A DNA stretch of 64,000 nucleotides from positions 2,314 to 66,313 of the forward strand of contig NZ_LMKM01000001.1 in the NCBI RefSeq assembly GCF_001421515.1, in the 5' to 3' direction. The stretch is from Pedobacter sp. Leaf216. GTDB lineage: Bacteria > Bacteroidota > Bacteroidia > Sphingobacteriales > Sphingobacteriaceae. Under the pieces are notes generated by a model. That model saw only the letters and a list, made by a program, of their open reading frames with translations, was not told the DNA's origin and ran no database searches. The position numbers and the translations under genes are program-made. This document shows, in pieces, positions 45,827-55,822 of this stretch. The stretch's first letter is position 1. Each line of letters starts with the position of its first letter.

Positions 45827-46357
45827 CTATTTTGAAAGGCTATGTTTCGATTCGCGCCATGCCCACGGTGCAATTGCATTTTGCTCTTGCCAGAGGCCGA
45901 TTTTGTTTTTCCTGGCTGTGATTTCCAGCTGCGCGTACAGTGAATCACTGGAATATTTTTTAAAATGCCAGGCCATTCCCTGTTTAATCATTTCCTGATT
46001 TACCACTTGCTTTTTACGATTAATGACAACAGCAATTAACCTTCTATAACGGTCGTATTTCTGGCTTTGTACGTTTACCATTTGCCCGAAACATAAATCG
46101 GACAATGCTTTTTTAGCCTGATTACCAAAAGGCTGCTTACCTCGTTTTTCCGGACAATCGATATGGGCCAAACGTATTTTTAAGGGTTGGTTCTGGTACA
46201 ATACTTCCATCGTATCGCCATCTAAAATGCGAATTACTTTGGCGGTAAAAACAAGGTTGCTGTATTTTCTCGGTTTGCTTCCGCCAGGTTGAATGAAGCA
46301 GCTTTGCAGTGTTAACAGCAAAAAGAGAACACTTAATTTCCCTTTTCCCAACCGCAT
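45827..46357 (-). CDS. Staphylococcal-nuclease-like lipoprotein
   Basis: 176 residues. Lipoprotein signal ending LTLQSC. The SNase domain has ILDGDTMEV, LAHIDCPEKRG, YDRYRRLIAVV and a C-terminal ARKNKIGLWQ, so the catalytic Asp/Glu/Arg set is present. A Ca-dependent nuclease exported to the envelope is expected. Its start overlaps the end of the 71-aa gene by 25 nt, so the two are likely translated from the same message. Confidence 0.85.
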   Translation of the reverse strand: MRLGKGKLSVLFLLLTLQSCFIQPGGSKPRKYSNLVFTAKVIRILDGDTMEVLYQNQPLKIRLAHIDCPEKRGKQPFGNQAKKALSDLCFGQMVNVQSQKYDRYRRLIAVVINRKKQVVNQEMIKQGMAWHFKKYSSDSLYAQLEITARKNKIGLWQEQNAIAPWAWRESKHSLSK

Positions 46358-46632: not shown

Positions 46633-47475
46633 TTACTTCATAAAATTACTAATTACTGCTTCAACGCTAGATGCTAGGTCTGTTGTTCGTAATTCAAATC
46701 TTTTCACTTTCATGGCTTTGAACCAGTCGGACCAGTATTGTTTTATCACATCCTCTTCATAAGGACTTTGGATAGATGGATTAATACCCAATACCATAAT
46801 TTCTAGTTCTTTTAAATTGTAAGGAAAAGAGATAAAGCCCAAGTTACTTTTCTTCATAACGGCTAGGTAATTCGCGGTATTTAGCTTTTTTTGAGCTAGA
46901 AATTCTGGAGTGATGAATGAACTTTTACCTTTTATGACTATTTTACTGTTTTTGTGGTACATGTAACCATCGGTTAGTATCACTAAAATATTCCTATGAT
47001 CTGGTTTTATACAATATTGCTGAACATTGTTTTTGAAGAATCTCCAGATGTCGGAGCCAATATAATTACCGTCTTTAATAGCATACTGATAAATTTTTAC
47101 AGGTTTGTCGTTATAAACTTTATCTAGATTTAAAAAATCATTTTTACTGGATTTAGGATTGAAATCAACCTTTAATTGTTGACTTAACAACTCAATATCT
47201 TGTATTTCAGGTATAGGATTAAAAAACACCTGCATTTGATCCTTTAAAAGAAGCATCTTCTTTCTTTTTATGTGTTTAACAAAAAGCTTTTCTACAGATT
47301 TGATATATTGAAGATCGCGTTGATAAAGACCAGGATTCTTTTTAGGGTCAATCCGATCTGATAAATCAAGTAAAAAACTGATATTCAGGTTTTGATTTTG
47401 CTGGGCTTTAGTCCCTTTCGAGCAGATACAAGTGATCAAAAAGATCATTAATAGGCTTAGTATTTTTTTTTTCAT
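46633..47475 (-). CDS. Secreted VWA-like domain protein
   Basis: 280 residues from the ATG at 47475. The signal is KKKILSLLMIFLITCICSKGTKAQ. NISFLLDLSDRIDPKKN resembles a VWA MIDAS start (DxSxx) and ILVILTDGYMY the later strand with TDG. No TM after the signal, so it is periplasmic or extracellular. The frame could begin at 47529 but that would overlap the upstream gene. It is last in a four-gene operon after the coiled-coil membrane protein, which suggests a shared complex. Exact function unknown. Confidence 0.6.
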   Translation of the reverse strand: MKKKILSLLMIFLITCICSKGTKAQQNQNLNISFLLDLSDRIDPKKNPGLYQRDLQYIKSVEKLFVKHIKRKKMLLLKDQMQVFFNPIPEIQDIELLSQQLKVDFNPKSSKNDFLNLDKVYNDKPVKIYQYAIKDGNYIGSDIWRFFKNNVQQYCIKPDHRNILVILTDGYMYHKNSKIVIKGKSSFITPEFLAQKKLNTANYLAVMKKSNLGFISFPYNLKELEIMVLGINPSIQSPYEEDVIKQYWSDWFKAMKVKRFELRTTDLASSVEAVISNFMK

Positions 47476-47482
47476 GCTGGTT

Positions 47483-48814
47483 TTATAAAGTTGACATATA
47501 AACGGAATTTTGGGAATCTTCACTTGCACCTACATTTTTAAGGTTTTCATCATAACAGGCCCTGCATTCATTTTGAAGATCAAATTTTTCACGTTGTGAA
47601 ATGCGAAGTTGTTCATTAACAAATGTGATCCATCCCTGCACATACTCCGAGGCATATAGTACATATTCTTTGGTAGGTATAATTACAGCATCAATGATCC
47701 TTTGTAGTGTAACAATGCGTCCTTGCGCTTCAACAGAAAGCTTCTTGATGCTGCTGAGTTCCTCTATCAGTTTTTCTTTTTGAATTTCGATATCCGCAAT
47801 ACGATCCTGGTGAATCTGAATATCTTTTTTTCTGCGTTGCTGTTCGTGTTTAATTTTATCTTTCTCACGGTGCTCTTTCATAATAAAATCGAATACCACA
47901 CCCCAAATGAGGTATACAACAAAACCTGCAAAGATGATTCCCCAGAACTCTATTTTAGTTATAGCAATAGAAACATTAAATTCCTCAGAATCAAAGTCTT
48001 TATTCAACTTATCTATCTTTTCTTCTATCTGATAAGCCAGGATGGCATCAAAAACAAAAGTGGTAATGAAAAGTAATCCGATCTTTAAATAATTCCATTT
48101 GCTTTTAGCCTCTCCAAACATGTGGATTAAATAACCCAAACCAAGAAATACAAAAGGAATAAAGGTTACAAATACACCTTCTAATAATCCATCACGCCAG
48201 GCTTTTTCAAAGGCTTTTGCATCTAAAATATTCATAACAACTGTGATACTATTCGCATCCAATATTTTAAAAAAAGCGGAGTATGAGGTGGAGATATAAA
48301 AGGTAAATAAATATAAACTTAAGGGCATGAGAATGATTAAACCAATATAAAATTTAGCTGAAGCTCCCTTCGATGCACTGATTTGGTATTTTTCTGGATC
48401 TCGGGCCAGTTCGTTAATTTCGAACTTTAACTCTTCGATATCATCTTTTACCTTTCTAATATTGCTTTCTACCTGAGTAATCTGCTGTTTTTTGCTTTCT
48501 TCGCTGATGGAAAGTGTCTTGATTTCAGTTTCCTTGCTTCTTTGCTCATTGATGTAAGGTTCTTTGGCTAGTTGTTGTTTTTCTACGAGTTCTTTTTCCT
48601 CATTTTGAAACTTCGCATAAATAGCATTCAAACATATCGAAAGTGCCAGTGGACTCCCACTGTTTCGAGATCCGTCTCTAAAGCCTTCTTCGTGGTAAGT
48701 TCTTTTTCTTACCTCCGCTGCTTGTTCGGTAACAGGTGTTTTGATCTCCACATCGTCATCTTGTGGCACATCGGCTGTTTTGAGGTTAAAAAATTCTTCT
48801 ATTTGAGCAATCAT
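47483..48814 (-). CDS. Membrane protein with coiled-coil arms
   Basis: 443 residues. Residues of about 70-140 and 325-375 are charged, heptad-like coiled coils (EKELVEKQQLAKEPYINEQ, HEQQRRKKDIQIHQDRIADI). Between them are four TM-like helices (KFYIGLIILMPLSLYLFTFY, VFVTFIPFVFLGLGYLIHMF, YLKIGLLFITTFVFDAILAY, WGIIFAGFVVYLIWGVVFDF). The C-terminal QNECRACYDENL has a Cys pair. No known family is recognised. The two coiled coils could pair in the cytosol and form a scaffold. It is third in the DUF6232-DUF6804-VWA operon. Confidence 0.65.
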   Translation of the reverse strand: MIAQIEEFFNLKTADVPQDDDVEIKTPVTEQAAEVRKRTYHEEGFRDGSRNSGSPLALSICLNAIYAKFQNEEKELVEKQQLAKEPYINEQRSKETEIKTLSISEESKKQQITQVESNIRKVKDDIEELKFEINELARDPEKYQISASKGASAKFYIGLIILMPLSLYLFTFYISTSYSAFFKILDANSITVVMNILDAKAFEKAWRDGLLEGVFVTFIPFVFLGLGYLIHMFGEAKSKWNYLKIGLLFITTFVFDAILAYQIEEKIDKLNKDFDSEEFNVSIAITKIEFWGIIFAGFVVYLIWGVVFDFIMKEHREKDKIKHEQQRRKKDIQIHQDRIADIEIQKEKLIEELSSIKKLSVEAQGRIVTLQRIIDAVIIPTKEYVLYASEYVQGWITFVNEQLRISQREKFDLQNECRACYDENLKNVGASEDSQNSVYMSTL

Positions 48815-48850: not shown

Positions 48851-49231
48851 TTATACTTCCCGCTTTACAGAAACGATGCGGTCTTTAGCGTATGTTTTTT
48901 GAGTAGGTGCTAACTCAATAGTTTTTTCTTCTATTTTTGTGGGTGCTTTTTTACTATAAAAAGCAAACAGTAAAAAAAGTAAACCTGTAATTACATCAAG
49001 TGGAATCCAAATGCTTTTCCGGTGCAGGTAAATGGGGAAAAAAGGATTAAAAAGAATAAGGACTAGAATAAAAACAATAGCTAACGAATAGTTCTTTTGA
49101 TTTATCCAGCTGTAAATGTGCAACACTGCTCCAAGTGAGACTATGGTTCTTAAAAAAGTGTAATATTCGATAGGCAACTTCAATATTGCTGCAAAACAAC
49201 ATAGAGCACAAACAATAAGAAAAACTTTCAT
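48851..49231 (-). CDS. Small membrane protein, DUF6804-like
   Basis: 126 residues with four hydrophobic helices (VFLIVCALCCFAAIL, FLRTIVSLGAVLHIY, LAIVFILVLILFNPFF, IPLDVITGLLFLLFAFY), ending in a basic tail. The ILFNPFFPIYL segment and short four-TM form fit DUF6804 as I recall it. Function unknown. It lies 36-39 nt from neighbours in the same operon. Confidence 0.55.
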   Translation of the reverse strand: MKVFLIVCALCCFAAILKLPIEYYTFLRTIVSLGAVLHIYSWINQKNYSLAIVFILVLILFNPFFPIYLHRKSIWIPLDVITGLLFLLFAFYSKKAPTKIEEKTIELAPTQKTYAKDRIVSVKREV

Positions 49232-49270: not shown

Positions 49271-49639
49271 CTAACCCCTGAATACAATGGCATCATTAAG
49301 TGCGTTTACAATTTTCTGAACATATAATCGATCTTTTGAAACAATACTGTTCACTTCTCCTGAATTGGTACTGATTCTAACAGTAAATTCATTTTTAATA
49401 AGAATACCAATACTTAGAATAATAAAGCCCATGATTCTTGCTTCACTGGAAAGTAACATTAGCGTGCCTATTACGATCATAATAGCAGGTAAAGTTTTAC
49501 TTTTTATGATTTCAAAAATATGAACAGAAGATATGTTCCTCATTGCATAAGTTTTTGAGTTGGTAACATACCTGGATTGGGTAACCGTAACATTTATATC
49601 TTGGTAAAATGTTACTTCGCTTTGTAATTGTGCTTCCAT
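49271..49639 (-). CDS. DUF6232-like protein
   Basis: 122 residues. SEVTFYQDINVTVTQSRYVTNSKTYAMRNISSVHI begins a small beta domain as in DUF6232, followed by two TM-like helices (LPAIMIVIGTLMLLS, IMGFIILSIGILI) and a beta end (VRISTNSGEVNSIVSKDR). First gene of the operon. Its promoter carries the dyad TTACGGGAAACCGTAA (49695-49710) and TACTTTTG -7 box. Confidence 0.6.
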   Translation of the reverse strand: MEAQLQSEVTFYQDINVTVTQSRYVTNSKTYAMRNISSVHIFEIIKSKTLPAIMIVIGTLMLLSSEARIMGFIILSIGILIKNEFTVRISTNSGEVNSIVSKDRLYVQKIVNALNDAIVFRG

Positions 49640-49665: not shown

Positions 49666-49710
49666 CAAAAGTAGACAAGTAACAAGGCTATACATTACGG
49701 GAAACCGTAA
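49666..49710 (-). promoter_or_regulatory. Dyad-controlled promoter of the DUF6232 operon
   Basis: -7 box TACTTTTG at 49666-49673 (minus). After 21 nt comes the perfect dyad TTACGG-GAAA-CCGTAA at 49695-49710. No TTG is present at -33, which suits activator-dependent initiation with the activator centred near -44. Confidence 0.7.
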
Positions 49711-49799
49711 CACAAAAAATTATTTTCAACTCACTCAAAAAACGAAACACTCTCATTATCAAACAGATAAAAATCAATCAACTGTGCATATTTAATACA

Positions 49800-50138
49800 C
49801 TATTCATTTTTAGGCTTTATGTAATTCTCAGATTTTTCTTTTATCCACCAGTTATTATCAAGGCGTTTTATTGATTTAAAAGAACGGGTTATACCGGGTT
49901 TCATGGTTGCAGTATCGAGGTGCCTCGGCCACACATGTAAAATGGTGTCGGCACCGATACGTACCCACCAAAATGTTTTGCCGTAACGTTTTGTTGTATA
50001 AATTTCGCTTATCGTTCCTGTAATGGTGTTCATATTAAAACCAGGTTCCATTAACTGATAAGTTGTTATTTTTTGTTTCTGTGCACGGGCAATGCCAAAA
50101 GCGAATGTTAATAAAAGCAACGTACCTAAATGTTTCAT
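49800..50138 (-). CDS. Small secreted protein of unknown family
   Basis: 112 residues from the ATG at 50138. Signal peptide MKHLGTLLLLTFAFGIARAQ. The mature part (GTISEIYTTKRYGKTFWWVRIGADTILHVWPRHLDT) looks like one small beta domain. The frame can start at 50159, but the promoter box ends at 50143, so 50138 is preferred. One of the genes with the shared dyad promoter. Function unknown. Confidence 0.6.
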   Translation of the reverse strand: MKHLGTLLLLTFAFGIARAQKQKITTYQLMEPGFNMNTITGTISEIYTTKRYGKTFWWVRIGADTILHVWPRHLDTATMKPGITRSFKSIKRLDNNWWIKEKSENYIKPKNE

Positions 50139-50142
50139 TGCG

Positions 50143-50187
50143 CTAAGGTATTTAGGCAAAAAACGGATTCCTTACGGCAAACCCCAT
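50143..50187 (-). promoter_or_regulatory. Dyad-controlled promoter of the 50138 gene
   Basis: -7 box TACCTTAG at 50143-50150 (one mismatch), 21 nt, then TTACGGCAAACCCCAT at 50172-50187, a degenerate dyad with one good half. The box ends four nucleotides before the ATG, so a leaderless transcript is possible. Confidence 0.55.
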
Positions 50188-50328
50188 TCGGGTTATTTTA
50201 TTTAGGATAGATGATTTATTTATGAAAGATTGGATGTATAAGGAATGCTTAACATAAATCATTGCAGTAGCGTATTTTCGGTTATAATATCAAGCTATAC
50301 AAGATCAAAAAAAATGGTATTGAAAATG

Positions 50329-50374
50329 AGAGGTTGCCCTGTTTGCCACCAATACAAACGATGGGGCAACCTCT
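50329..50374 (-). terminator. Terminator after the HsdR_N-like gene
   Basis: AGAGGTTGCCC (50329-50339) pairs with GGGCAACCTCT (50364-50374). On the minus strand it is followed by an AT-rich, partly U-rich stretch. It is the only clear feature of the 260-nt gap before the 50138 gene besides that gene's promoter. Confidence 0.65.
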
Positions 50375-50398
50375 GCACTTTTGAGAATTAAACGTTAA

Positions 50399-51463
50399 TT
50401 AATAAAGATCTATGGTTTGATGCAGCTGAATCCGGTAATTGTAAAGCTCATCCAAATTGAATAATTGTTTTTTCTCTCCGGCGTCTTTCCCGTTGTGAAA
50501 AGTTTCTATGTATTTATTAGCGGTATTAAAGTGGAATCTACAAATCGGCTTGCGGTTATTGTCATCTAAAAGCACTCCGAAATAAGATTGGGTATCCCGT
50601 GCAGCAATTCGAATGGAAGGGATTTTCTCGCGTAAAATGGCCTTTACAATCTGGAAAGCTTCTAACTCTTCCTCTGTGGTTACAATTTTAGATGCATCGG
50701 GATCTTCAATAATGGAAATCACTTTATCATCTTCCTTTTTTTCTATTTTCTCATTGATATTCAGCGCTGATTTTAAACGGTCGCTAATGGATTCGTTGAT
50801 GGAAATGGCAAGGGCTTTTTTAGTATATTCTTTAAAAGCGATCATGCGGTTAGCGGTAAGGGGCTTATCAAAAAACCGGTTAACCAATAACTTCACTATT
50901 TCATCAGAAGGGCTATCAATCTCCTTTTCAAATTCCTTTCTAATGGCCTTAATGTATTTTAATCCTTCGGCAGAATCTAGGATGGTTTCTAAATTGTATT
51001 CATTTTTAGTAAAGCTTTCGAGAATTTTAATGGCATTGTCTTTCAAATCTTCGATATCGATGGTGAGAAAAGGTTTTTCATCCATGATATTTGGCTTTTC
51101 CAGATCGGCATAAAAGTTATAAACCGTACCATTGGTAAGTACACCAAAACGTGCTTTGGAAACATGGTAATAACGGTGAAGTTGAGAGTTATGTGCATCT
51201 GCACTTTCTTTCCAATGTTTGCATTCGAAAATAAGAATCGGTTCGTTGTTTTTACGGATCACATAATCTACCTTTTCACCTTTTTTGGTTCCGATATCAC
51301 AAATATGTTCAGGAATCACTTCGGTTGGATTAAAAATATCATAGCCAAGAATTTGAATAAAAGGCATCACAAATGCATTTTTTGTTGCTTCCTCGGTATT
51401 AATCTGGTCTTTTAAACCCACTACCCGCTGATGAAGTTGTTCTAACTTTAGTTTAAGATCCAT
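50399..51463 (-). CDS. Stand-alone type I restriction HsdR_N-like protein
   Basis: 354 residues from the ATG at 51463. TEEATKNAFVMPFIQILGYD, then GEKVDYVIRKNNEPILIFECKHW: the Asp and Glu-x-Lys of a PD-(D/E)XK nuclease-like domain as in HsdR N-termini (res. about 20-110). The rest has no helicase motor, and no HsdM or HsdS is nearby. The C-terminal region (IRIAARDTQSYFGVLLDDNNRKPICRFHFNTANKYIE) recurs in such solo proteins. It could be a nuclease or a DNA- or RNA-binding protein. Its promoter shares the dyad with three neighbours. Confidence 0.75.
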   Translation of the reverse strand: MDLKLKLEQLHQRVVGLKDQINTEEATKNAFVMPFIQILGYDIFNPTEVIPEHICDIGTKKGEKVDYVIRKNNEPILIFECKHWKESADAHNSQLHRYYHVSKARFGVLTNGTVYNFYADLEKPNIMDEKPFLTIDIEDLKDNAIKILESFTKNEYNLETILDSAEGLKYIKAIRKEFEKEIDSPSDEIVKLLVNRFFDKPLTANRMIAFKEYTKKALAISINESISDRLKSALNINEKIEKKEDDKVISIIEDPDASKIVTTEEELEAFQIVKAILREKIPSIRIAARDTQSYFGVLLDDNNRKPICRFHFNTANKYIETFHNGKDAGEKKQLFNLDELYNYRIQLHQTIDLY

Positions 51464-51489
51464 GTTGCCTGAGTTTTTTGGTTGTTGAA

Positions 51490-51534
51490 CAAATGTAGAA
51501 CGCGAGCTTGGTTTATTTTTACGGGAAACCGTAG
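51490..51534 (-). promoter_or_regulatory. Dyad-controlled promoter of the HsdR_N-like gene
   Basis: -7 box TACATTTG (51490-51497), 21 nt, then TTACGGGAAACCGTAG (51519-51534). Identical spacing to the DUF6232 operon promoter. The box decides the start at 51463 rather than 51544. Confidence 0.7.
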
Positions 51535-51705
51535 AGGGGTGCATTGGTATCTTTGATATTGCTTATAGAAAGTTTTGTCCGCATTATCATTTTAAATAAG
51601 CCGGAAGAAACCGTTAGCCAATAGTTGCACACAGATTAAAGCTGAACCAGCCTGATCATCAATTTTATATTTTAGACCATTAAGCAGTTAAGGGAATTAA
51701 GATTA

Positions 51706-52371
51706 TTAAATTACCTTATTTGCGATACAATAAGCGATGAGTTGCCCGTTATTGGAAATATTCAGCGCAGTTTTAATATAACTTATCCTTTTTTCGATAC
51801 TGCTTAAACCAGATGGTTCCATTTTTTTTTCCTTTAAAATGCCAGCCATTTCTTTTTGGGTTTTGCCATCTAAAATTAGTGAAACGATTGTTTTGTCGTA
51901 AGCGGTAAAATCGTGCAGGTATTCTTCTTTTTGCCTCAGATTGGGCGAATGGTATTTTTTATTTTTATAAACACTTTCTAAAGCCAGTTTAAGGTCTTTC
52001 GCATCGTGGCGTGCCTTAGGTACAAAAGCATCTATATCATATTCCTTAAAAAGTGTATTGGCTATCAAAGCTCTGTTTTCTATAGAAAATACCAGAATTT
52101 TTAAGTCGGGCTGAATTTCCTTTAATGCCTTTATCAGTTCTCTACCTCCTGATATTTTTTGTTTTGGATAATCTTCATCAAAAGAAAGATCGGTAATGAT
52201 CAATTCATAAGGATCGCCATCTCGAAGTGCTTTTTGTACGCGTGTAAATGCATCATCACAATAAAATACATAATCTTTATCAGCTATGGTAATCCCAAGA
52301 TCGGTAAGTGCACTACGAAGTGATTTACTCACGATTTCATGGTCTTCGGCGATGAGTACGTTTTTGAACAT
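51706..52371 (-). CDS. NarL/FixJ-family response regulator
   Basis: 221 residues. Receiver: acidic pair in IAEDHEIV (Glu9/Asp10), phosphoacceptor Asp61 in LIITDLSF, then VFSIEN and PKARHD with the conserved Lys. The LuxR-type helix-turn-helix covers about 155-215 (DKTIVSLILDGKTQKEMAGIL ... SSIEKRISYIKTALNI), with a small insertion (KEKKMEPSG) in it. It lies 14 nt after the kinase gene and is the best candidate to bind the neighbouring dyads. No terminator was recognised after it. Confidence 0.9.
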   Translation of the reverse strand: MFKNVLIAEDHEIVSKSLRSALTDLGITIADKDYVFYCDDAFTRVQKALRDGDPYELIITDLSFDEDYPKQKISGGRELIKALKEIQPDLKILVFSIENRALIANTLFKEYDIDAFVPKARHDAKDLKLALESVYKNKKYHSPNLRQKEEYLHDFTAYDKTIVSLILDGKTQKEMAGILKEKKMEPSGLSSIEKRISYIKTALNISNNGQLIAYCIANKVI

Positions 52372-52385
52372 ATTTATATTTTTAA

Positions 52386-54056
52386 TTAGATTGGAAATGA
52401 AAATTCAACACAAAGCCCTTCATCGGGCTTGGTGTCAAAAGTAATATGGCCCGAAATACTTTCTATACGGGTTTCCGTATTCCTCAAACCATTTTTAAAT
52501 GTTAAAACCTCCATTCCTTTTCCATTATCCACATATATTACCTTTACAAGGCCATTTTCACGCTTAAAATCTATTCCAACCATATCTGCACCGCTATGTT
52601 TTTTCATATTGGTCATCAGTTCCTGCAAAATGCAAAATACCTCTGTTTTGGTATCATCTTTAATTCCTTCCCAAAGTTTTTCAGCATTACCTCCCAAAAC
52701 GATGTTGATTTTCTCAGAGGCATAAGCATATAACATTTTTGATAACTCAACAGAAAAACTTTCTTCGTGGCTATTATCTTTATTATCGTAAGAAAGGTCT
52801 CTGGATATTTTATAAATCACATCCAACTTATCAGCGAGGTCGTTTTTATCTATTTCATTAGTATTCTCCACTTCCGACATTACCTGGTATACCCGATTGG
52901 CAACACGATCGTGAATTTTTTTAACATATTTAAGCTCCGTTCTTTTTACTTCGATTTCCTTCTCCTGTTGCAGGCTTTTTTTCCGTTTTAAGTAAAGGAA
53001 ATAGCCGAAGATTAAAAATATTATCAGAGTACCGATCCCAATATTTCTAACTAAAATATCCTTTTGTTTCTCTATATTCTCTCCTTGTGCTTTTAGAAAG
53101 TTGGCTTTGTTTTTTTCCGAATTATAACGAATAACTGCAAATTGATTCTTGGCAGCACTACGGACAGTTTGTATGCTATCGCTTAGATTTTGATAAGTCT
53201 GAAAATATTTTTTGGTGGCTGGTGGAGGACTAAGTTTGATCAGTTTTTGTAAACCTTCCAAACGATCATCAACCCGGTTTAACACTTGAGCAATCTGATA
53301 TCTCTTGTTTGCATAAAACAAAGCAGAATCAGGTTTAATATTGGTGTAATAATCAGCAAGATGGGCATAACTCGCATTAAGCTCTAATGAGAGATTGTTC
53401 CTTTTCCTAATATCTAATGCTCTTAATAATTCAGGGGCAGCATTGTAATTTGGGTTTTGAAGCCATTTGGTTAGGGCAAGGTTGGATAATACTTTGGCAA
53501 ATGTTTCACTGTCAATTGATTGATTTAAAATATCTTGATAGATGGTTATTGCCTTTAGATAAGCTTTTCTTTTCCTGTAAATATTTCCAATATTATTTTT
53601 AAGCACAGCTTCGGGAACAACACCCGTAGTATAATCTAAAGCTTCTGTATAAAATTCAATAGCTTGATCATAATCTTTTAAATTTTCTGAAGCAAATCCT
53701 AAGTTATTTAAGTTCGCTTTTATAAATATGTGCTCTTTTGGTATTCTTTTATTGAAAAATGGAGATGCATTTATCGATAATTCTTGTCCTCCAAAATAAT
53801 CACCATTATTAGTTGAGATCATAGCCATATTTAAAAGGCACTTCGCAACACCTAAATTATTTTTCTGTTGAAGAAAGAGGTCTTTAGCTTTATCCAAATA
53901 AAAAAAAGCACTATCAATTTTTTGTTCTACTAAGTATTGATATGCCTTATCGTATATAGGGTTATTTTCTTTTTTTTCGACTTTTATACCCGGGCTTTTC
54001 TTGGAGCAGGAGAACAAAAGCACGATGAAGATTATGGCAATATTGAGGCGCTTCAC
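52386..54056 (-). CDS. TPR-containing histidine kinase, lipoprotein type
   Basis: 556 residues with a GTG start. The N-terminus has a lipobox (VLLFSCSKK). About 40-260 contains TPR-like repeats (SAFFYLDKAKDLF, DYDQAIEFYTEALDY, AYLKAITIYQDIL). A TM is near 335-355 (IGIGTLIIFLIFGYFLYL), the dimerisation helix has KKIHDRVANRVYQVM with the likely phospho-His, then HATPase boxes ELMTNMKKHS, DNGKGM and GLRNTETRIESISGHI. Related to NarX-like kinases paired with LuxR-type regulators. The gene order kinase-regulator makes one unit. Confidence 0.9.
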   Translation of the reverse strand: MKRLNIAIIFIVLLFSCSKKSPGIKVEKKENNPIYDKAYQYLVEQKIDSAFFYLDKAKDLFLQQKNNLGVAKCLLNMAMISTNNGDYFGGQELSINASPFFNKRIPKEHIFIKANLNNLGFASENLKDYDQAIEFYTEALDYTTGVVPEAVLKNNIGNIYRKRKAYLKAITIYQDILNQSIDSETFAKVLSNLALTKWLQNPNYNAAPELLRALDIRKRNNLSLELNASYAHLADYYTNIKPDSALFYANKRYQIAQVLNRVDDRLEGLQKLIKLSPPPATKKYFQTYQNLSDSIQTVRSAAKNQFAVIRYNSEKNKANFLKAQGENIEKQKDILVRNIGIGTLIIFLIFGYFLYLKRKKSLQQEKEIEVKRTELKYVKKIHDRVANRVYQVMSEVENTNEIDKNDLADKLDVIYKISRDLSYDNKDNSHEESFSVELSKMLYAYASEKINIVLGGNAEKLWEGIKDDTKTEVFCILQELMTNMKKHSGADMVGIDFKRENGLVKVIYVDNGKGMEVLTFKNGLRNTETRIESISGHITFDTKPDEGLCVEFSFPI

Positions 54057-54167
54057 TTTTTTAGATTTTAATCTAAATTAAAGAAATTTAATTTGGATTG
54101 CACCTTATTTAAACGTTTTAAAATTGTTAAGCACTAGATGACTGAAATTTTTGAAATATTAAAATAA

Positions 54168-54201
54168 AAAATAAGGCGGCAATGTGCCGCCTTATTATCC
54201 T
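54168..54201 (-). terminator. Terminator after the 54206 gene
   Basis: AATAAGGCGGC pairs with GCCGCCTTATT around a 5-nt loop. On the minus strand it ends in TTTTTTATTTT. It sits a few nt beyond the stop of the 69-residue gene and argues that the gene is real. Confidence 0.85.
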
Positions 54202-54205
54202 ATTA

Positions 54206-54415
54206 CTATTTCGGTATTTTGATCTGGCCACCTTCACCACCTGTATCGTCGCCCGGAGGGGTGTCTCCTGGGTTATTTGGATCATCTGGATTCGTATCAC
54301 CAGGATCGGCATCAGCAGTATTTACAGTTGTTGTTCCGCCACAAGAAGCAGACTGATTTGTATTGTACGGAGTAGCTAATCCTAATAGGATTGCAATAAA
54401 TAATGGAATAAACAT
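54206..54415 (-). CDS. Small Asp/Gly/Pro-rich secreted protein
   Basis: 69 residues. MFIPLFIAILLGLATPYNTN is signal-like, followed by SASCGGTTT and then a low-complexity tail of repeated DPGD, NPDD, NPGD, PPGDD steps ending GQIKIPK. No known family. A strong terminator directly follows its stop. Low-complexity acidic tails of this kind may bind calcium, but that is a guess. It is between the kinase gene and the REP-like element. Confidence 0.45.
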   Translation of the reverse strand: MFIPLFIAILLGLATPYNTNQSASCGGTTTVNTADADPGDTNPDDPNNPGDTPPGDDTGGEGGQIKIPK

Positions 54416-54445
54416 TTCTTTAAAAATTTAAAAAGTGATGTACAC

Positions 54446-54580
54446 GTAGTTCCCCACGCCCCATGCATGGGGGTTGCTACAAACTGTAAATCAGAAGGCC
54501 TTCTGAAATTTTTGGGAAGTGTTGAGTGTCTGTCGCGGGAGCTTGTAGCTGCTTCCCAAACCGGCTAATAACTACCGCGA
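54446..54580. repeat. REP/BIME-like pair of inverted hairpin units
   Basis: Unit 1 (54446-54482): GTAGTT ... the palindrome CCCCATGCATGGGG (54459-54472) ... GCTACAA. Unit 2, minus strand (54575-54543): GTAGTT ... CTACAA. They face each other. In between lie the perfect palindrome TCAGAAGGCCTTCTGA (54491-54506) and a 9-bp stem TTTGGGAAG/CTTCCCAAA (54511-54519, 54552-54560). TCGCGG (54533-54538) can also pair with CCGCGA (54575-54580). The GTAG start next to a hairpin is the hallmark of REPs mobilised by RAYT transposases; no such transposase is in the window. A structured RNA is the alternative. Confidence 0.5.
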
Positions 54581-54720
54581 TTTCTACTCTTTTATTAATC
54601 AGTTTTTTAAATTAGCTTTGATAATGAATCGCTGCCTGTGCTGATCAACGATACAAATATGGGGTGAGTCAAAAGATTAATTATCAGTATATTCCGATGT
54701 TTCCTTTGTTTCCGCCTAGA

Positions 54721-54764
54721 TTCCGGAAAACCGTAAATATTCCACTTATTCCGTCTTATTTTTA
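54721..54764 (+). promoter_or_regulatory. Dyad-controlled promoter of the 54782 gene
   Basis: TTCCGGAAAACCGTAA (54721-54736), 20 nt, then TATTTTTA (54757-54764, one mismatch from TAnnTTTG), 17 nt before the ATG. Same arrangement as at the other three promoters but on the plus strand. Confidence 0.6.
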
Positions 54765-54781: not shown

Positions 54782-55822
54782 ATGTTTGAGGAGTATAAAA
54801 GATCGCTATTAGATTTCTACCGTATTAAAAAAGAGAATAATCTGCTTACGACTAATTTGGAAATCCCTGGTCGCGATAAATTAAAGAAAGAATGTGTTGA
54901 AGTGTTTCTGAGAAAAAACACACAGAAGGATAAGGATTTAGTCAAATCGATCTTCGATCCAACAAACAAGTATGAAGATCAGGTAAGAAGCATTGAAAAA
55001 TTCAAGGTAGATAAGTTAAGGCCTTTGGTAAATTTTTTAACCGAAGGAACAAGTATTAGAGAGGAAAAATTTGTCAAACTTCTTGGCTGGTTGTTGGATT
55101 TCACCGCTTACGATGAATGGAGGCAACTTAGCGATGAGGATAAAAAACGCATTTTTGAGAAACTATTAAATGGGGGTAAAACTCCTCCTGTAAGTATAGG
55201 TCCACCAACGACCACAACAGATCCCCCAAAACCACCAAGGGAAGAAACCACCTATCGTCCCCGCTTCTCAACATCTCAAATAATTATATCCTGTATTATT
55301 TTACTTTTTATCACCAGCACTTCTTTTATCGCCTGGGAGCGTATGGCCGCAAGCGTTAGAACGCCCAACGCGGATGAAAAACACATGTATTGGAATGGCG
55401 ATCATTACGAACCCGTTAAAAACGGGACACATGAACCTGGGGTTACAATTATCCCTTTAGACCTTAAACTTTTGCAACAACAAAGAAAGATTACTTTACC
55501 TGATACATTGACAAAATACTCGTTGGGTAAAGTTTGGTACAAAGGCCATGGGAATGATCATGAGTTTTTTACCGATAGTGGTGCATATCCTTCGGATACA
55601 AATAGAGTACTTAAGCCACTTTCAAACATGATCTTAACCAAATACACTTCTAATTACAAGTATATGCTCACCCGTTTAGTATGGCTTTTATGTGCGGCTT
55701 TTTTGATCAGTACTGGTGGTTATTTGGTGAGTAGGATGAAGCGGAAAATAATCCTTAAAAAGGATCCGCAAGTGGCTGAGGAAAATACCGATGACTTGAT
55801 TGGAGCGGAATTAGCCCAATAA
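54782..55822 (+). CDS. Two-TM membrane protein of unknown family
   Basis: 346 residues. N-terminal 125 residues are helical and charged, probably cytosolic (MFEEYKRSLLDFYRIKKENN, VDKLRPLVNFLTEGTSIREE). A Pro/Thr-rich linker (about 135-165) leads to TM1 (about 170-188, IIISCIILLFITSTSFIAW), a periplasmic loop (MYWNGDHYEPV ... LGKVWYKGHGND), TM2 (about 300-318, LTRLVWLLCAAFLISTGGYLV) and a short cytosolic tail. No enzyme motif. Not recognised, but the shared promoter dyad puts it with the kinase-regulated group. A hairpin terminator follows. Confidence 0.7.
   Translation: MFEEYKRSLLDFYRIKKENNLLTTNLEIPGRDKLKKECVEVFLRKNTQKDKDLVKSIFDPTNKYEDQVRSIEKFKVDKLRPLVNFLTEGTSIREEKFVKLLGWLLDFTAYDEWRQLSDEDKKRIFEKLLNGGKTPPVSIGPPTTTTDPPKPPREETTYRPRFSTSQIIISCIILLFITSTSFIAWERMAASVRTPNADEKHMYWNGDHYEPVKNGTHEPGVTIIPLDLKLLQQQRKITLPDTLTKYSLGKVWYKGHGNDHEFFTDSGAYPSDTNRVLKPLSNMILTKYTSNYKYMLTRLVWLLCAAFLISTGGYLVSRMKRKIILKKDPQVAEENTDDLIGAELAQ

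Follow-up and report, generated by a model that had tools for sequence, protein, structure and literature searches.

The stretch analysed here, a 64,000-nt window of Pedobacter sp. Leaf216 (positions 2,314 to 66,313 of contig NZ_LMKM01000001.1; coordinates below are those of the window), carries on its minus strand the gene of a sensor histidine kinase (52386-54056) followed by that of a response regulator (51706-52371), which combines a receiver with a divergent LuxR-type helix-turn-helix (HTH). On the plus strand lies the divergent gene of a membrane protein (54782-55822), the usual third partner of the pair, hereafter the C protein. A prediction made earlier from the sequence of this window described four promoters around these genes that share the dyad TTACGG-N4-CCGTAA at a fixed distance from the -7 box, and proposed the regulator as the protein that binds them and turns on the group. 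Our comparison across genomes supports an action of the regulator on these sites, and we consider it quite probable that the kinase-regulator pair activates itself and a variable regulon through the shared dyad, most likely as an inducible immunity switch.

The four dyads, starting at 49695, 50172, 51519 and 54721, are all present in the window and are of unequal strength. To score them we used the composite promoter pattern TACGG-N4-CCGTA-N22-TAnnTTTG, in which 22 nt counted from the 14-bp core correspond to 21 nt from the 16-mer. Site B (51519-51534, minus strand), 5′ of an HsdR_N-like gene, and site D (49695-49710, minus strand), 5′ of a DUF6232 operon, are strong, with an exact core and a TAnnTTTG box at exactly 22 nt, namely TACATTTG (51490-51497, minus strand) and TACTTTTG (49666-49673, minus strand), respectively. 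Site C (54721-54736, plus strand), 5′ of the C protein gene, is an asymmetric dyad with one mismatch and a gap of 20 nt to a -7-like box, TATTTTTA (54757-54764, plus strand). The site at 50172-50187 (minus strand), 5′ of a gene for a small secreted protein, is weak (three mismatches to the composite); because the orthologous gene carries the composite in 19 relatives (four exact, 15 with two mismatches), it resembles a genuine site that has decayed. The original prediction had overlooked one strong site, site A, whose dyad ATACGGGTTTCCGTAT (52465-52480, minus strand) and box TACTTTTG (52436-52443, minus strand) both lie within the kinase coding sequence and form a putative intragenic promoter of the regulator gene. 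The exact composite occurs three times in the window, where shuffles expect 0.04 occurrences at up to two mismatches, and four times in the whole 5.68-Mb genome, the fourth copy being on another contig; the random scatter over the genome that would have spoken against the prediction was not found.

The regulator was matched in 103 of 145 Pedobacter genomes (112 hits), leaving 42 genomes without it. We fetched 100 of the 112 loci, with up to 20 kb each (1.92 Mb in total); the 12 others were mostly the most divergent, short-contig or partial hits, and four unfetched loci that were seen otherwise (L045, L054, L274 and L285) have site A or its like. A further 23 loci from outside the genus were drawn from the 80 kept of 301 relatives. 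Exact dyads are present at each of the 100 fetched Pedobacter loci (230 sites), and ten control palindromes or altered spacers gave between 0 and 4 matches each over the same loci. At the level of whole genomes, the composite with at most one mismatch was found 555 times in the 103 regulator-bearing genomes (mean 5.4, never fewer than two per genome) and 37 times in the 42 others (average 0.9), against 42 and 13 sites, respectively, for a reversed-pattern control at the same threshold. The motif is thus strongly enriched together with the regulator, near control level without it, present at all fetched loci and fixed in position across genera, which ties it to the regulator; judging from these comparisons, the regulator very probably binds the sites and activates its own gene. 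A chance origin of the motif is ruled out by the ten control patterns, the shuffles and the genomes without the regulator. The regulator has one clear copy in its own genome and is 95% identical in Pedobacter psychrodurus and Pedobacter sp. Bi126. A candidate paralogue in the own genome (L056) was rejected, being only 28% identical and having a single two-mismatch dyad in its 3.4 kb.

Site A is the most constant of these elements: it is found with at most one mismatch in 99 of the 100 loci, nearly always about 107 nt before the regulator start, and together with its box in 21 of the 23 loci from outside Pedobacter (20 exact, one with a mismatch), in Sphingobacterium, Parapedobacter, Mucilaginibacter, Filimonas, Chryseobacterium and Arcticibacter. 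Some more distant members of the class have variants such as ATGTGG-N4-CCGTAT at the same spacing, and one Pedobacter locus (L083) keeps the site only in part. The position of site A falls in a conserved segment of the kinase, N-T-x-x-R-I ... I-T-F, so that its conservation could in principle reflect the C-terminal ATPase motif of the protein and not a promoter. In a codon table of 99 rows, including two loci that are no longer coding here (L106 and L154), Thr is always ACG (98/98), Arg always CGT (99/99) and Asn always AAT (92/92) at the dyad, and Ile is always ATT (94/94) and Phe always TTT (98/98) at the box; the equally conserved Gly and Leu codons a few positions away use all their synonyms, and elsewhere in these kinases ACG makes up 12.8% of Thr and CGT 16.3% of Arg codons. 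Third positions are therefore fixed at the dyad and the box and free alongside. The two residues encoded within the spacer are variable (Glu, Gly or Val at the first; Asn, Thr, Ser or Ile at the second), and the DNA pattern is kept all the same. L154 and L106 have in-frame stops 16 and 12 codons ahead of site A and no long kinase frame before the site, and the dyad and box are intact despite the broken frame. The frozen codons and the lost-frame loci lead us to reject coding constraint, which we regard as a most improbable source of the pattern, and make site A a clean case of a promoter fixed within coding sequence. In one of the G060 copies (L077) the kinase is split over two frames before the C-terminal domain, and the dyad and box are likewise intact.

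The distance between dyad and box is nearly invariant. Site B, taken as the first exact dyad downstream of the regulator, is present in 88 of the 100 loci, and site D comprises the class of further exact dyads (36 sites); the sites with TAnnTTTG at exactly 22 nt from the 14-bp core number 97 of 99 for A, 80 of 88 for B and 34 of 36 for D, against a background of 6e-4 per position. Among 132 exact dyads other than A, the box is at gap 22 in 115 and at gaps 21 and 23 in three each, and the remaining gaps up to 60 nt hold seven altogether. Site C, about 2.3 kb upstream of the regulator start and before the divergent C protein gene, is looser: it was found in 51 of 100 loci at no more than one mismatch, 45 of these with the CCGGAA ending seen in the window, and it is followed by TAnnTTT at 21-22 nt in 47 of the 51, the full TAnnTTTG being present in only four. 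Several Sphingobacterium and Parapedobacter genomes have a perfect dyad at this place. The housekeeping promoter consensus of Bacteroidota consists of a TAnnTTTG -7 box and a -33 TTG element, and class II activators sit near -41. The prediction had noted the lack of a clear -33 TTG, and by eye none is conserved between dyad and box in the A, B or D consensus either. With the box placed at -7, the centre of the dyad would lie near -40, like a class II activator site; this spacing fits the proposed activation of the genes, which is very probable from the position of the sites. Two observations concern the dyads themselves. Site C is flanked by GGAAT-like repeats in steps of about 11 bp (54700-54760; consensus of 51 relatives), which are perhaps the site of a second regulator. 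In Mucilaginibacter phenanthrenivorans (L229), site A and the downstream site both carry CCGGA where CCGTA is usual; that the two differ in the same way suggests an altered specificity.

The proteins fit a two-component system. The kinase matches TPR_12 (2.4e-10) and, under its cut-off, HATPase_c (5.6e-4), and by eye has a lipoprotein-like N terminus and one membrane span; its gene was found in 98 of the 100 regulator loci, in L106 downstream and in opposite orientation. In 12 regulators examined, the receiver matches PF00072 in every case at E ≤ 1 (the copy in the window with 26.8 bits, under the cut-off of 30.2), and D10, D61, S96 and K119 are invariant. The HTH of none of the 12 matches Pfam GerE; it gives weak profile matches to the DNA-binding domains of RhlR (E 0.002) and ComA (E 0.07), with a 6-residue insertion. 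NarL-family regulators bind inverted repeats, and the assignment of the regulator to that family, made in the original prediction, holds for the receiver and the layout, the HTH being divergent. The best solved-structure match is RcsB, over profile positions 4-185 (6eo2, E 2e-13), and it is again the C-terminal HTH that sets the regulator apart from RcsB and other NarL/FixJ regulators. The C protein has a homologue in 92 of the 100 Pedobacter loci and 17 of the 23 others (159 of 182 in a wider set that includes duplicates and two regulator-less loci), and it has no match in Pfam, NCBIfam or PADLOC. Its structure model, with a predicted local distance difference test score (pLDDT) of 87.5, comprises an N-terminal helical domain and two long helices with a small strand-rich domain between them; the two helices look membrane-spanning in the model, and a search of the PDB with this fold returned nothing at E ≤ 0.001.

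The closest described parallel is the ComP-ComA quorum system of Bacillus subtilis, likewise a kinase and a response regulator with a 6-4-6 inverted repeat, where ComA is an activator; the ComA box as given in the excerpt of PMC4797271, TTGCGG-N4-CCGCAA, is one base per half-site apart from TTACGG-N4-CCGTAA. The two systems belong to different phyla and have different targets, and here the HTH has an insertion and no Pfam GerE match. A second, direct-repeat site of the ComA type between box and promoter was not seen by eye in the A, B or D consensus. As both the half-site base and the HTH differ, we call the regulator ComA-like in its working and do not file it as ComA. No description of this motif or regulon was found in the open-access literature.

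The genes behind distant copies of the composite tell more of the function than the local ones. The original prediction had seen only the targets in the window and had missed those described in this and the following paragraph. In the own genome, vsr and a C5 methylase gene flank the fourth exact composite, and the methylase gene is followed by matches to MzaB, MzaC, MzaD and MzaE in this order (PADLOC E 6e-42, 3e-98, 7e-12 and 2e-55). Mza is a known anti-phage system; unlike the known system, it is coupled here to Vsr, the C5 methylase and the promoter of the regulator. We examined 40 other stretches with distant sites, and 39 contain the composite at one mismatch or fewer. Distant composites also precede genes of HNH-like, PLD, HsdR_N, HATPase_c_3, DUF4236 and Cas9 proteins and, in five genomes, of a 512-amino-acid lipoprotein; for a fair part of them the downstream genes could not be named. 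The own genome has only one other exact TTACGGGAAACCGTAA, some 57 nt ahead of a gene that by eye is serine-recombinase-like, near position 2750 of L330 (G000:C3:242249), with a TATATTTG box 23 nt away that points the opposite way.

Cas9 is another known defence protein among the targets. TIGR01865 matches over its cut-off in 13 of the 145 Pedobacter genomes, and all 13 carry the regulator (P = 0.009). The cas9 start was readable in 12 of them (G033 excluded), and in 10 of these 12 the dyad, nine times exact and once with a mismatch, lies some 60-140 nt upstream of the start codon (73-154 nt counted from the fifth codon). In contrast, the dyad is absent within 700 nt at each of 28 cas9 loci of regulator-less class members (Fisher P = 8e-8 against 10/12); these 28 were drawn from 30 fetched loci of the class sample, two of which (L355 and L364) have no recognisable N terminus. 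The ten dyads have a box at 21-22 nt on either side, TAnnTTTG or TAnnTTTA facing cas9 and TAnnTTTG opposite. A 42-nt core (GAAAGCAAATCACAATAAGG...) that is the same in 12 of 12 loci starts 2-9 nt past the box opposite cas9 and leads into a GC-rich stretch and a T run, and we read this arrangement as a putative trans-activating RNA (tracrRNA) of a type II clustered regularly interspaced short palindromic repeat (CRISPR) system. A search for CRISPR arrays in the fetched stretches of the cas9 loci found none. At one further locus, L291 of genome G061, the dyad, the box and the 42-nt core adjoin two CRISPR-type repeats, 76 nt from each other and both with the complement of the first 15 nt of the core, a repeat pairing known from this one locus only; it is perhaps a remnant CRISPR locus. 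In Parapedobacter luteus a one-mismatch composite precedes cas9, and the tracrRNA core lies across a dyad in the same locus. In genome G336 the regulator and cas9 are separated by 3 kb. A BLAST search of plasmids with one cas9/tracrRNA region gave no match. GH25-like genes, which stand behind the tracrRNA in L291 and L297, were dropped as candidate targets.

The same promoter is also found in viral contigs. IMG/VR contains 109 stretches with the exact composite, compared with five when the spacing is altered to 30, and 107 of 115 composite hits are in contigs of GC content below 0.46. Some viral contigs (L512, L529, L487, L506, L459 and L535-L552) encode a protein of 60-75 amino acids that corresponds to the HTH of the regulator without the receiver. 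The exact dyad and box stand at -48 before the gene in 4 of 18 such loci; in 13 the flanks show no composite, and in the remaining one a one-mismatch composite lies elsewhere. Where it is present, this arrangement is a kinase-independent link between the HTH and the dyad. Of ten phage target proteins, five match PHROGs, four of these only families of unknown function; of ten scanned in Pfam, one has a clear match (DUF4760). In seven viral loci (L422, L429, L438, L439, L483, L499 and L526) one identical composite promoter is followed by differing small genes, which resembles a cargo slot.

Sites, spacing, co-occurrence with the regulator, codon freezing and target identities are read from the sequences, and from them we infer that the regulator binds the sites, is phosphorylated and acts as an activator, not a repressor, and likewise the nature of the signal. 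In the mechanism that we propose, the TPR-type kinase would phosphorylate the regulator, a dimer of which would bind TTACGG-N4-CCGTAA, a 6-4-6 box with the geometry of the ComA box. With its near edge 21 nt upstream of TAnnTTTG, the bound protein would substitute for the missing -33 element and recruit RNA polymerase. The regulator would in this way turn on its own gene from the promoter near the end of the kinase coding sequence, together with the divergent C protein gene, the strain-variable adjoining gene or operon, and distant operons. A repressor acting on the same sites is a rather unlikely alternative: the dyad does occupy the would-be -33 position, where a bound protein could block the polymerase, but the A, B and D consensus has by eye no conserved -33 element to be covered, as in activator-dependent promoters, and the fixed 22-nt spacing suits a contact between activator and polymerase. 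Since co-occurrence alone cannot name the binder, a different transcription factor could also bind the dyad and have the kinase-regulator pair among its targets. This is less probable still, given that the motif follows the presence and absence of the regulator, that some viral contigs put the same HTH, without kinase or receiver, behind the same promoter, and that the geometry of the dyad equals that of ComA.

The immunity reading was favoured because known defence systems are among the distant operons, the methylase/Mza operon here and cas9 with the tracrRNA elsewhere; it rests on these, and its footing is less firm for the numerous targets whose function is not known. With the same regulator and sites, the regulon might instead be a general envelope-stress or competition response with the defence genes as part of its cargo, a competing view to which we give a sizeable though smaller chance. 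In its favour, many of the targets are function-unknown proteins that are small, look secreted or lie in the membrane, or are DUF1508 and DUF4236 proteins or the 512-amino-acid lipoprotein, and the kinase and the C protein look envelope-facing; however, Cas9 with its tracrRNA and the Mza/methylase operon are nucleic-acid immunity genes of little use in envelope repair, and several more targets are nuclease-like (HsdR_N, PLD, HNH and SNase).

Several findings weigh against a self-activating immunity regulon. Most targets (DUF6232, DUF4236, DUF1508, small proteins and lipoproteins) have no proven defence role, a PADLOC scan of seven local neighbours of the kinase-regulator pair returned nothing, and the own genome has no Cas9 match. 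The cas9 loci of G130 and G155 hold only two-mismatch dyads at the same place, G061 has the dyad, the tracrRNA and the repeats but no match to Cas9, and the cas9 loci may share descent, so that they are not fully independent for the statistics. Two Sphingobacterium loci (L211 and L218) have the regulator and lack site A. Genome G008 has no regulator yet contains one exact and four one-mismatch composites, and six genomes counted as regulator-less hold at least two composites; among these is G124, which was counted so although C-terminal fragments of the regulator are present, a way of counting that works to the disadvantage of our interpretation.

A more specific version of the immunity switch, which we put forward tentatively and hold to be somewhat doubtful, is a Bacteroidota phage alarm, in which the envelope-facing TPR kinase and its membrane partner would sense infection or envelope damage and the ComA-like regulator would activate the defences of the strain, including cas9 and the tracrRNA; cargo would join by way of the dyad, and phages would exploit the same promoter. 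If so, the regulator would be amplified by way of the intragenic promoter in the kinase, cas9 and the tracrRNA would be expressed from one two-sided promoter, and some phages would also carry a receiver-less copy of the DNA-binding domain of the regulator. This bears on the largely open question of how bacteria time the expression of CRISPR and other costly defences. In Serratia, a single regulatory pathway, Rsm, controls several CRISPR-Cas systems (PMC8450108, excerpt); that case concerns types I and III and is post-transcriptional, whereas here one dyad, with a -7 box on each side, stands between cas9 and the tracrRNA and would govern both in the predicted regulon. No Cas9 system with a named two-component switch was found in the open-access literature. 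The pair is spread over a large group of bacteria from soil and water and would, if our interpretation is true, be a directly testable immunity switch: with the 16-bp box the regulon can be predicted from nothing but the sequence, the genera concerned include cultured strains, and the box yields new candidate defence genes such as those of the DUF6232, DUF4236, HsdR_N-like and PLD proteins.

The first genes beside the regulator vary by strain, being HsdR_N-like in 28 loci, DUF1508 in 18, a 77-amino-acid protein weakly resembling DUF4177 in 15, a small Cys-rich protein in 11, DUF6232 in nine, DUF4236 in seven and PLD-like in five, besides others; the PLD target has a weak PADLOC match to DrmC. 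In the window, all on the minus strand, site B is followed by the HsdR_N nuclease-like gene (50399-51462, ATG at 51462; PF04313, 9.4e-16) and the weak site by the gene of the small protein, secreted by eye (49800-50138). The first gene after site D encodes the DUF6232 protein (49271-49639; PF19744, 2e-16). It probably forms an operon with the genes of a DUF6804 protein on the same strand after a 39-nt gap (48851-49231; PF20619, 1.4e-24), a protein that by eye is a coiled-coil membrane protein (47483-48814), a protein of unknown family (46633-47529) and, as the probable end of the operon, an SNase-type nuclease (45827-46357; PF00565, 5.7e-25).

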